A stretch of 22,555 nucleotides of DNA from a virus, in IMG/VR virus record IMGVR_UViG_3300042569_000185, positions 1 to 22,555 of that record. One strand, written 5' to 3'. Positions 16,097 to 19,057 of the stretch are shown here, one piece after another. Each line of letters opens with the position of its first letter. The first letter of the stretch is position 1. Under the pieces are notes generated by a model. That model did no database searches. It saw only the letters and a list, made by a program, of their open reading frames with translations, and was not told the DNA's origin. Both the position numbers and the translations under genes were made by a program.

Positions 16097-16331
16097 GTGT
16101 ACATCCAAAAGAGATTTTAAAAAGATTTTGACTGCTATGATTAAAGCAAGTGCATTCAAACCTAATAACAAAGGCTGGCATTTTTATGCAGCGAGTAACT
16201 TTGATTGTGGCATTAACAATTACAAAGGGTATGATGTAAACTTTATTCCTGTTGGTTATTTAGGTTTAAAAAGTGGTTATATATATCTAACACAAAAATT
16301 GGATGTTCAAGAGAACTACAGCAATAAATAA
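16086..16331 (+). CDS. Hypothetical protein between TerS and TerL (81 aa)
   Basis: 81 residues from ATG 16086 (84 from 16077). It begins MKIKCTSKRDFKKIL, is basic, and contains GWHFYAASNFDC and PVGYLGLKSGYIYLTQKL. It overlaps TerS by 11 bases and TerL by 29 bases. An extra gene between TerS and TerL is unusual. Lack of ACACGRA and a different codon feel suggest an inserted accessory gene, but a spurious frame cannot be excluded. Ribosomal-protein-like or nucleic-acid-binding (basic, beta-rich), function unknown. Confidence 0.5.
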   Translation: MKIKCTSKRDFKKILTAMIKASAFKPNNKGWHFYAASNFDCGINNYKGYDVNFIPVGYLGLKSGYIYLTQKLDVQENYSNK

Positions 16332-17463
16332 AATCTTAGCGTTAAAAAAACGAATCAAGATAATTCAAGGTGGAACATCAGCAGGTAAGACCTTTGGTAT
16401 TCTTCCTGTATTAATTGACCGATGTACTCGCTATCCTAACTTAGAAGTTTCGGTTGTAGCTGAATCAATACCACATTTGCGAAGGGGTGCATTAAAAGAC
16501 TTCATCAAAGTGATGAGGTGGACAGGTCGGTATATTGAAGACCGATTCAATAAGTCTCTTCTAAGATACGAGTTTGGCAACGGTAGTGTAATGGAGTTCT
16601 TCTCAGCAGACGATGCATCTAAACTCAGAGGAGCAAGAAGAGACGTGCTTTATATCAACGAGTGTAACAATGTTTCATTCGAATCTTACAACGAGCTTTC
16701 AATTCGTACAAAGAAAGAAGTCTATTTGGACTTTAACCCTGCTAATGAGTTTTGGGTACACAAGGAACTGAAAGACGAACCTGATTCAGATTTCATAATC
16801 TTAACCTACAAAGACAACGAAGCTCTTGATGAATCAATCGTAAGCCAAATTGAAAAGAACCGTGAGAAAGCAGCAACGAGTTCTTATTGGGCAAATTGGT
16901 GGAGGGTTTATGGACTTGGAGAAATAGGAAGCCTTGAGGGCGTCATCTTCAACAACTGGAAAACGATTGATACAATACCTGCTGAAGCAAAGTTAATAGG
17001 AATAGGATTAGACTTTGGTTACACGAATGATCCAACATCAGCGATTGAAGTATACAACTACAACGGACAAAGAATAGTAAACGAAATCTGTTATAGAACA
17101 GGAATGGTAAACTCTGATATTGCAAACGTACTGCCGAATCACGTTACTATCTATGCTGATTCCTCAGAGCCTAAATCAATCGAAGAGATTAGAAGATTCG
17201 GAAAGATGATTAAAGGCGTAACAAAAGGAGTTGATTCAATCAAGTTTGGTATTGACGTAATGCAAAGACAAGAATACTTAGTTACCAGTGCAAGTACAAA
17301 CCTAATCAAAGAGCTTAGAAGCTATTGTTGGAGTCTAAAGAAAGACGGAGATAAAACAAACATTCCTATTGATCATTACAATCACGCTATTGATGCATTA
17401 AGATACCATGAGATGGAAACACTCGGTTTAAAAAAGAACTATGGACAATACAACATCAGATGA
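16303..17463 (+). CDS. terL: Terminase large subunit
   Basis: 386 residues, full length. ATPase: Walker A G23-GTSA-G28-K29-T30, SVVAESIPHLRRGALKDFIK, Walker B VLYIN-E120 with the catalytic glutamate. RNase-H-like nuclease: D237 in GLDFGYTND, D286 in IYADSSEP, and D357/D364 in DHYNHAIDALRYH. It drives DNA into the prohead and cuts it. The sequence is of the Bacteroidota-phage TerL group (Terminase_3/6). Its start lies inside the preceding small frame; the ATG at 16303 gives the usual FKRTTAINKILAL start. Its C-terminus overlaps the next gene by 23 bases. Confidence 0.93.
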   Translation: MFKRTTAINKILALKKRIKIIQGGTSAGKTFGILPVLIDRCTRYPNLEVSVVAESIPHLRRGALKDFIKVMRWTGRYIEDRFNKSLLRYEFGNGSVMEFFSADDASKLRGARRDVLYINECNNVSFESYNELSIRTKKEVYLDFNPANEFWVHKELKDEPDSDFIILTYKDNEALDESIVSQIEKNREKAATSSYWANWWRVYGLGEIGSLEGVIFNNWKTIDTIPAEAKLIGIGLDFGYTNDPTSAIEVYNYNGQRIVNEICYRTGMVNSDIANVLPNHVTIYADSSEPKSIEEIRRFGKMIKGVTKGVDSIKFGIDVMQRQEYLVTSASTNLIKELRSYCWSLKKDGDKTNIPIDHYNHAIDALRYHEMETLGLKKNYGQYNIR

Positions 17464-17634: not shown

Positions 17635-18402
17635 ATGAAGTTAGAAATCAACGTACCTTCTAATCTAAGTGAGATTCCACTTAAACACTATCAGGACTTC
17701 CTAAGAGTTCAGGCAGATTCCAACGATGAAGAATTTGTTGCTCAGAAGATGATAGAAATTTTCTGTGGCATTCCATTAACAGACGTAGTTAAAATGAAGC
17801 TAAAGAGCTTGAATGAGCTAATAGCACACTTTACAAAGTTATTCTCAGAGAAACCTGAGTTTAAAAGAACGTTTGAAATTAAAACTGAACAAGGCAAAAT
17901 TGAATTTGGATTTATTCCTGAATTAGAAGAAATTTCATTTGGTGAATATATTGATTTAGAGAATCATCTTACAAGTTGGGATAGTTACCACAAAGCAATG
18001 GCGGTTATGTATCGTCCAATTGTGAAAACACGAAAGGATAAATACGACATCTTACCATACGAACCAAACAAAGACTTCCAAGAGTTAATGAAATTCGCTC
18101 CTTTGGATGTAGTAATAGCAAGTTCTCTTTTTTTTTGGACTTTAGGAAACGAGTTGTTACAGGCTACCCTGAACTATTTGGAGAAGCAGATGAAGAAGGA
18201 CAAGAATCTGTCAACGACTTTTCAGAAACAACTCAATTTGCAAAACGATGGGGATGGTATCAATCAATATATGGACTCGCTAAAGGAGACGTTACTAAGT
18301 TCGATGCAATCACCGAGCTTAGACTTACTAAATGTCTCACCTATCTCACCTTCGAAAAGCAAAAAAACGAAATCGAACATAGACAATTCCAACGTAATTT
18401 AA
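17635..18402 (+). CDS. Tail assembly chaperone-like protein, zero-frame product
   Basis: 255 residues without shift. The N-terminal two-thirds (MKLEINVPSNLSEIPLKHYQ; EISFGEYIDLENHLTSWDSY; AMAVMYRPIV) belong to a Bacteroidota-phage family that sits at the head of tail genes. At 18127 the frame runs through CTT TTT TTT TGG, a U9 slippery tract (18128-18136). After it the frame continues for another 88 codons (WTLGNELLQATLNYLEKQMK) to TAA at 18402, 8 bases before the stop of the -1 frame. Homologous chaperones (lambda G/GT) make two products by frameshifting; here the two tails overlap nearly completely, which is very unusual. Function as a tail chaperone is inferred from the frameshift arrangement and its position before tail genes. 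Confidence 0.7.
   Translation: MKLEINVPSNLSEIPLKHYQDFLRVQADSNDEEFVAQKMIEIFCGIPLTDVVKMKLKSLNELIAHFTKLFSEKPEFKRTFEIKTEQGKIEFGFIPELEEISFGEYIDLENHLTSWDSYHKAMAVMYRPIVKTRKDKYDILPYEPNKDFQELMKFAPLDVVIASSLFFWTLGNELLQATLNYLEKQMKKDKNLSTTFQKQLNLQNDGDGINQYMDSLKETLLSSMQSPSLDLLNVSPISPSKSKKTKSNIDNSNVI
18128..18136 (+). promoter_or_regulatory. U9 slippery site for -1 frameshift
   Basis: Nine T follow C18127. In the zero frame codons are CTT TTT TTT TGG; the heptamer T-TTT-TTT at 18129-18135 fits the X-XXY-YYZ rule for -1 slippage and leads directly to TTG GAC TTT AGG in the other frame. A nine-base T run also allows slippage by RNA polymerase, so the exact mechanism is open. Confidence 0.7.
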
Positions 18403-18410
18403 AAAGATGA
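18129..18410 (+). CDS. Minus-1 frame extension of tail chaperone gene
   Basis: The -1 frame is open from 18042 to TGA at 18410, with no ATG between 18042 and the slip site, so it is most likely entered by frameshift from the gene at 17635. After the slip the product gains 91 residues (starting LDFRKRVVTGYPELFGEADE, containing RWGWYQSIYGLAKGDVTKFD and ending FQRNLKR). WGWY-x-IYGLA-x-GD is a conserved phrase I recall from Bacteroidota phage proteins. The fusion would be about 258 residues, nearly the length of the zero-frame form. Its TGA forms an ATGA junction (18407-18410) with the next gene, as everywhere else in this genome, while the zero-frame stop does not. Function: probable GT-like tail-chaperone tail. 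Confidence 0.7.
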   Translation, partial: FFLDFRKRVVTGYPELFGEADEEGQESVNDFSETTQFAKRWGWYQSIYGLAKGDVTKFDAITELRLTKCLTYLTFEKQKNEIEHRQFQRNLKR

Positions 18411-19057
18411 TAGGATTTTACGAGGTACTGAACAAACTGAAATGGCACTTTGACAATGATCAAGTTGTTAACTCAGTTACACAAGGAGATATCTTTCAGG
18501 TTGACCTAAACAAACAAACTATTTTTCCATTGACTCATATCATGGTAAATAGTTCAACGCTACAATCAAACACACAGACCTTCAATGTGTCTATTCTTGC
18601 AATGGATATAGTTGATATTTCTAAATCAGAGGTAACGGATGTATTCCAAGAGAACAATAATGAGCTTGATGTATTAAACACACAACACGCAGTTTTAAAT
18701 CGTTGTTATCAGCAAATGTTACACGGTAACTTATGGGATGTTCAGTTTGTGGTTTCAGGAGAACCAAGTTTAGAACCATTTACAGAAAGATTCGAGAACT
18801 TGTTAGCAGGTTGGACGATGACTTTCGATGTTACGATTCCAAACGACATGACAATTTGCGATACTGGAAGTTACACACCTTTCTGTTCTCCTTCATACGT
18901 TGTAAACACGGACGCAAGTTATACTGCAACAGTACAAAGTGGAAGCACATTAACTCTACCTGATACAACCTTTAACGTATTAATTGATGATGTTCAAGTA
19001 GCATCAGAAACTTATCCAACTTTAAGCAATCAAACAATAAACATAGTATGGCAATAA
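18407..19057 (+). CDS. Putative tail protein
   Basis: 216 residues, beta-rich. N-terminal part (MIGFYEVLNKLKWHFDNDQV, then VNSVTQGDIFQVDLNKQTIF) and a later region with several NTF and VDI strands followed by a Thr-rich, Ser-rich C-terminus (SYTATVQSGSTLTLPDTT). The first 150 residues recall the short 'tail terminator-like' fold of phage tails, but I cannot confirm the family. It starts by ATGA with the -1 frame of the tail chaperone and overlaps the fibre gene by 10 bases. Confidence 0.62.
   Translation: MIGFYEVLNKLKWHFDNDQVVNSVTQGDIFQVDLNKQTIFPLTHIMVNSSTLQSNTQTFNVSILAMDIVDISKSEVTDVFQENNNELDVLNTQHAVLNRCYQQMLHGNLWDVQFVVSGEPSLEPFTERFENLLAGWTMTFDVTIPNDMTICDTGSYTPFCSPSYVVNTDASYTATVQSGSTLTLPDTTFNVLIDDVQVASETYPTLSNQTINIVWQ

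Follow-up and report, generated by a model that had tools for sequence, protein, structure and literature searches.

The gene and its probable role

The stretch of viral DNA analysed here, termed the window, is positions 1 to 22,555 of IMG/VR record IMGVR_UViG_3300042569_000185. On its + strand lies a large terminase gene (16303..17463; PF04466, 2.4e-13; PF17288, 4.3e-11), the syntenic neighbour of the locus of interest, and 3′ of it a gene whose zero-frame reading begins with the ATG at 17635 and ends with the stop at 18400-18402 (17635..18402, + strand; 255 amino acids in the list of open reading frames), residues 1-167 being an N-domain and the remaining 88 codons a zero-frame tail. At the end of the N-domain part are nine consecutive Ts (18128..18136, + strand), with C on the 5′ side and GGACTTTAGG on the 3′ side. 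They are read in the zero frame as CTT (18127-29) TTT TTT TGG, and contain the heptamer T-TTT-TTT at 18129-18135. The first-pass annotation took this heptamer to be in phase for −1 slippage, and saw two long frames open beyond it; direct reading bears this out, there being 88 codons past the run in the zero frame, ending at 18402, and 91 in the −1 frame, ending at 18410. The −1-frame tail after the slip (18129..18410, + strand) reads FFLDFRKRVVTGYPELFG...WGWYQSIYGLAKGD...LKR, with its stop at 18408-18410. That frame is open from 18042 and, as was also claimed, lacks an ATG, the sole classical start-like codon near the run being the TTG at 18135; its stop overlaps the start of the next gene (18407..19057, + strand; 216 amino acids, phrog_30964) as ATGA, the ATG of that gene being at 18407. 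The third (+1) frame is shut two codons past the run by a TAG (18143..18145, + strand). From these frames the predicted products are one of 255 amino acids by zero-frame reading and one of 258 by slippage, with 167 amino acids in common. Compared with a relative, G004, the window is without tape measure, protease, capsid and portal genes (the comparison being made at its 22555 end and at 1-512), and so we regard it as a fragment of a genome of ~30 kb.

What kind of protein is involved? The zero-frame protein matches phrog_32199 and, weakly, phrog_166 'tail protein' (13 of 39 members, the best at 8.5e-5), the latter being the one named function that Pfam, PHROGs and NCBIfam gave for either the −1 tail or the zero-frame protein. 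The match to Pfam Phage_TAC_7 is sub-threshold (E 0.065), and a viral fold library returned relatives, including P12024S, together with, weakly (E 0.24), a predicted tail assembly chaperone. The N-domain showed no detectable homology to either lambda gpG or P2 gpE, a sequence search of the PDB gave nothing, and a fold search against the PDB with the −1 domain and with the full zero-frame model yielded no match. In the AF2 model the N-domain is well defined (residues 11-165, pLDDT ~88) and the slip falls within a long helix, 157-188, after which the zero-frame tail is poorly modelled, pLDDT dropping to 33 along it; modelled alone, the −1 tail is helical (pLDDT 71). A slippery site in phase, followed by a long open −1 frame, is present, as expected of a tail-assembly chaperone gene, and slip site and −1 tail are conserved across divergent phages. 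Two features of lambda G/GT are missing, the early zero-frame stop (here there are 88 codons, in the window) and, in G004, a position directly before the tape measure gene. In that relative, which has the same gene order, terminase, chaperone-like gene, virion genes and tape measure gene (its product phrog_9483, 2.9e-12) run in one direction; the gene follows terminase, and the tape measure gene is not directly after it but ~6 kb downstream. Judged by architecture and weak profile matches, tail-assembly chaperone function is likely. The original designation as a tail-chaperone gene thus retains the slip architecture and the profile matches on its side, with gene order counting against it. As homology to the lambda and P2 proteins was not detected, and in view of that gene order, we describe the gene as working like a G/GT chaperone rather than placing it with those genes by descent.

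Conservation of the run and selection on the overlap

Relatives were gathered in several ways. Two protein scans of viral contigs gave a close set of 87 distinct genes with 64-100% identity, chosen by protein similarity and without selecting for T9. A distant set, likewise not selected for T9 and with relatives at ~25-50% identity, came from a scan starting from Nonlabens phage P12024L (29% identity) and a Flavobacterium MAG, and a pooled set comprises 221 distinct complete loci selected for having T9. Run length, on which the first-pass annotation had hung the distinction between dual coding and an ordinary indel, is T9 in 86 of the 87 close relatives and T10 in one; both frames are open in this set, and the two stops are 8 nt apart in nearly all of its members. 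All the distant relatives inspected, P12024L included, have both a run of T9 or T10 and a conserved −1 tail. In the 95.7 kb single-coding part of the same gene from the 221 phages, runs of A or T never exceed seven. So the comparative check on homologues that had been proposed finds both the T run and the two frames conserved.

The two tails differ in how constant they are. Among the 221 T9-selected loci the −1 tail stays within 80-93 codons, its FFL-F-R and WGWY being invariant across relatives at ~25% identity; the zero-frame tail spans 16 to 90 codons, with lengths of 16, 25, 39, 55, 62, 79 or 84 in relatives elsewhere, those of 16-25 being found in a few only. The earlier proposal of two equally long tails therefore holds in the clade of the window and does not extend beyond it, where zero-frame tails of 16-84 codons accompany −1 tails of 80-93. 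Given these ranges, the pair of full-length tails is best seen as one extreme of a lambda-G/GT-like arrangement. The +1 frame shuts after two codons in 220 of the 221, the ATGA overlap of the −1 stop with the next gene recurs in 138, and in many relatives a −1-frame stop codon is immediately 5′ of the run.

Several individual relatives merit mention. In one lineage (L332-L336) the T9 run is retained with its codon phase shifted (GGT TTT TTT TTG), alongside a 25-codon zero-frame tail and an 80-codon −1 tail, and apparent T8 slip sites among pattern matches were rejected, being T9 in another codon phase. G001 (C1:14865-15323) and G005 (C1:20633-21088) have a shorter gene following the chaperone, a match of ~153 amino acids with an internal TAA where it is 216 elsewhere. 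Flavobacterium phage 6H has a distant homologue (L355 10048-10927, − strand; hhalign E 6e-5) which ends at TGTTTTTTCTATAG; the next 304 nt are an unannotated gap containing open frames, and it seems likely that this locus too has a frameshift or an indel. The sole match among genome contigs, JACMPO010000165.1 of a Flavobacterium sp. MAG (L149), is a prophage or phage contig, pointing to Flavobacterium as a host group, and the phage group, P12024L with its uncultured relatives, probably infects Bacteroidota.

Substitutions were counted on a tree of 81 aligned genes. Upstream of the overlap there are 2.8/1.7/12.6 changes per site at the three zero-frame codon positions, and in the overlap 1.6/4.5/3.0; the T run has zero. 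At fourfold sites the contrast is between 15.4 changes per site upstream and, in the dual-coding stretch (18137..18402, + strand, in the window), 4.2 for the −1 frame (p 6e-5) and 1.6 for the zero frame (p 3e-5), with the next gene back to normal at 14.5 for third positions and 19.0 for fourfold sites. The zero frame is most strongly constrained over the first 40 codons past the slip, the last third being dominated by the −1 frame. A second clade, with tails of 77-84 codons, repeats the suppression (3.1 vs 0.28, p 3.5e-5), while a third, with tails of 61-63 codons, goes in the same direction more weakly and without significance. A caveat to the suppression is that the −1 frame on its own, past the zero-frame stop, also seems somewhat slow, the stretches concerned being short. 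Since fourfold-site changes are lower in both frames of the overlap than in its flanks, these substitution patterns show both tails to be under purifying selection. The idea of a dual-coding region, for which suppression of synonymous change had been the suggested check, is sustained for each of the two frames.

Origin of the two endings

We consider it probable, on the comparative grounds just given, that, by a −1 slip, two proteins sharing one 167-residue N-domain are made from the chaperone-type gene of this phage group. Normal reading would yield the 255-residue protein with the zero-frame tail, and slippage at T9, U9 in the message, the 258-residue one with a different, helical tail of 91 residues; that slippage occurs, and its rate, we infer. 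By analogy with lambda gpG/gpGT, the N-domain would coat the tape measure protein and the −1 tail would recruit the tube protein, the zero-frame tail perhaps being an addition to the abundant form that is peculiar to this family.

At what level would the slip occur? U-UUU-UUU is in its own right a good site for ribosomal slippage, and slippage by the ribosome at T9/U9 is the reading to which we incline, if with some reserve. A serious contender, to which we would give somewhat less than an even chance, is that RNA polymerase, slipping on T9, inserts one extra U, so that ordinary translation of a pool of U9 and U10 mRNAs provides both proteins. A run of at least nine A or T of conserved length is a mark of programmed transcriptional slippage, and T9 is such a run. 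Its entire length is kept, beyond the heptamer. The final position of the heptamer can change without altering either protein (TTT/TTC, TTG/CTG) and yet is unchanged in the 81 genes, TTC being absent there though it accounts for 37% of Phe codons. The lineage with T9 in the other codon phase retains the run, though this is a single event. A stimulatory RNA structure was not found: the search for a downstream stem-loop or pseudoknot gave no compensatory pairs and z-scores of −0.9 to +1.6. Polymerase slippage thus stays in contention because of the conserved length, the phase-shifted lineage and the lack of a stimulator. Homopolymer runs are used for it in Shigella mxiE and Yersinia tssM3, the latter with nine As (PMC5009743; PMC4256274). 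However, lambda-type chaperone slip sites are established as ribosomal (PMC5009743), and the T-run heptamers of SPP1 and P2-like phages are described as translational (PMC6316719; PMC3931495). The complete proposition for the polymerase, of chaperones of 255 and 258 amino acids arising by its slipping on an invariant T9, with 88 codons selected in two frames, is offered tentatively.

Whichever machinery slips, could the long zero-frame tail be a passive by-product, just the −1 fusion and the common N-domain mattering? The tail does fall to 16-25 codons in some relatives, its conserved GDGI-QYM is the shadow of WGWYQSIY, and its last third resembles out-of-frame Ser/Lys-rich sequence and is predicted to be disordered. 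However, when either protein of the window and its close relatives was recoded synonymously, the other frame was open over the overlap in at most ~0.1% of 5,000 trials, so that, given the −1 protein, the probability of zero-frame openness is ≤ ~0.001. Changes synonymous in the −1 frame are also suppressed ~3-fold. Nearly all of these would alter a zero-frame residue, and only ~10% would create a zero-frame stop. We judge a passive tail to be unlikely.

Much less probable still is independent expression of the −1 frame, as a gene with a separate start or by coupling to upstream translation. The TTG at 18135, at the end of T9 in the window, might be taken as its start, and in the P12024L record the −1 frame is annotated as starting at an internal ATG, but the conserved FFL-F-R segment starts within T9, and 88 of the 221 relatives have TTA at the end of the run, with no ATG, GTG or TTG before it nor any start within the 12 codons that follow. 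Since those 88 lack start codons, and others have a stop directly before T9, an independent start is improbable; for most relatives this survey of start codons rejects it. As for an indel, from sequencing or assembly, that has split a single continuous gene, T10 in contigs L093 and L337 does make N-domain and −1 frame continuous, but T9 with both frames open recurs in more than 200 distinct sequences from many samples and also in an isolated phage genome, which rules it out as a general cause and leaves it a negligible chance for the locus. The two T10 contigs are either natural fused variants or assembly errors.

Relation to known systems

In lambda-type chaperone frameshifts the shift usually appends a tail to a protein that would otherwise stop at once. 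Lambda gpG/gpGT resembles the present case in a −1 slip near the end of the chaperone gene and in one N-domain with two C-terminal forms; it differs in gene order, in the lack of detectable homology and in its short zero-frame tail, which, just as the first-pass annotation had remarked, stops soon after the slip, by measurement 5 codons past GGGAAAG compared with 88 here. P2 gpE/gpE+E′, with its T6G site and membership of the Phage_TAC_7 group, shares a T-run slip and an overlapping −1 frame, but its zero frame ends 6 codons past the slip, again there is no detectable homology, and the E of 0.065 is the only profile link. Shigella mxiE and Yersinia tssM3 also derive two C-terminal forms from a homopolymer run, but they are not phage tail genes and depend on RNA polymerase slippage.

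A true homologue is at hand in Nonlabens phage P12024L gp40/gp41 (29% identity), with the same C+T9 site, the same terminase neighbour and a −1 tail with KWGWY. It differs in having a zero-frame tail of just 25 codons and so is nearer lambda. Genes 40 and 41 (L002 3001-3695; JQ823123.1 23946-24640) look like one frameshifted gene with T9 at the slip; in the record the frameshift is unannotated, and gene 41 is listed as a separate short gene.

A literature search found no report on this chaperone-like gene family, and we know of none. A long zero-frame tail past a T-run slip does have a precedent in SPP1, where slippage at UUUUUUC gives, from a 112-aa common N-part, gp17.5 of 173 aa (a zero-frame tail of ~61 aa) and gp17.5* of 297 aa (PMC6316719). 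The likeness, one of architecture, lies in the common N-part, the T-run slip and the overlap of a long zero-frame tail with a long −1 tail. Here, in contrast to SPP1, the 88-codon zero-frame tail covers almost the whole −1 tail and the run is an invariant T9. What appears to extend the precedent is this near-complete overlap, with selection measured, from aligned genes, in both frames.

What follows for these phages? Gene callers miss such a frameshift, the P12024L record being an example. An invariant T9 without a stimulator makes the question of ribosome or polymerase testable by simple reporters, and should polymerase slippage be true, the chaperone ratio would be set at transcription. Because the alternative ending is long and selected, dual coding in dsDNA phages has here a clean natural example, and the zero-frame tails, graded from 16 to 90 codons alongside a constant −1 tail, let one trace directly how an overprinted tail grows.
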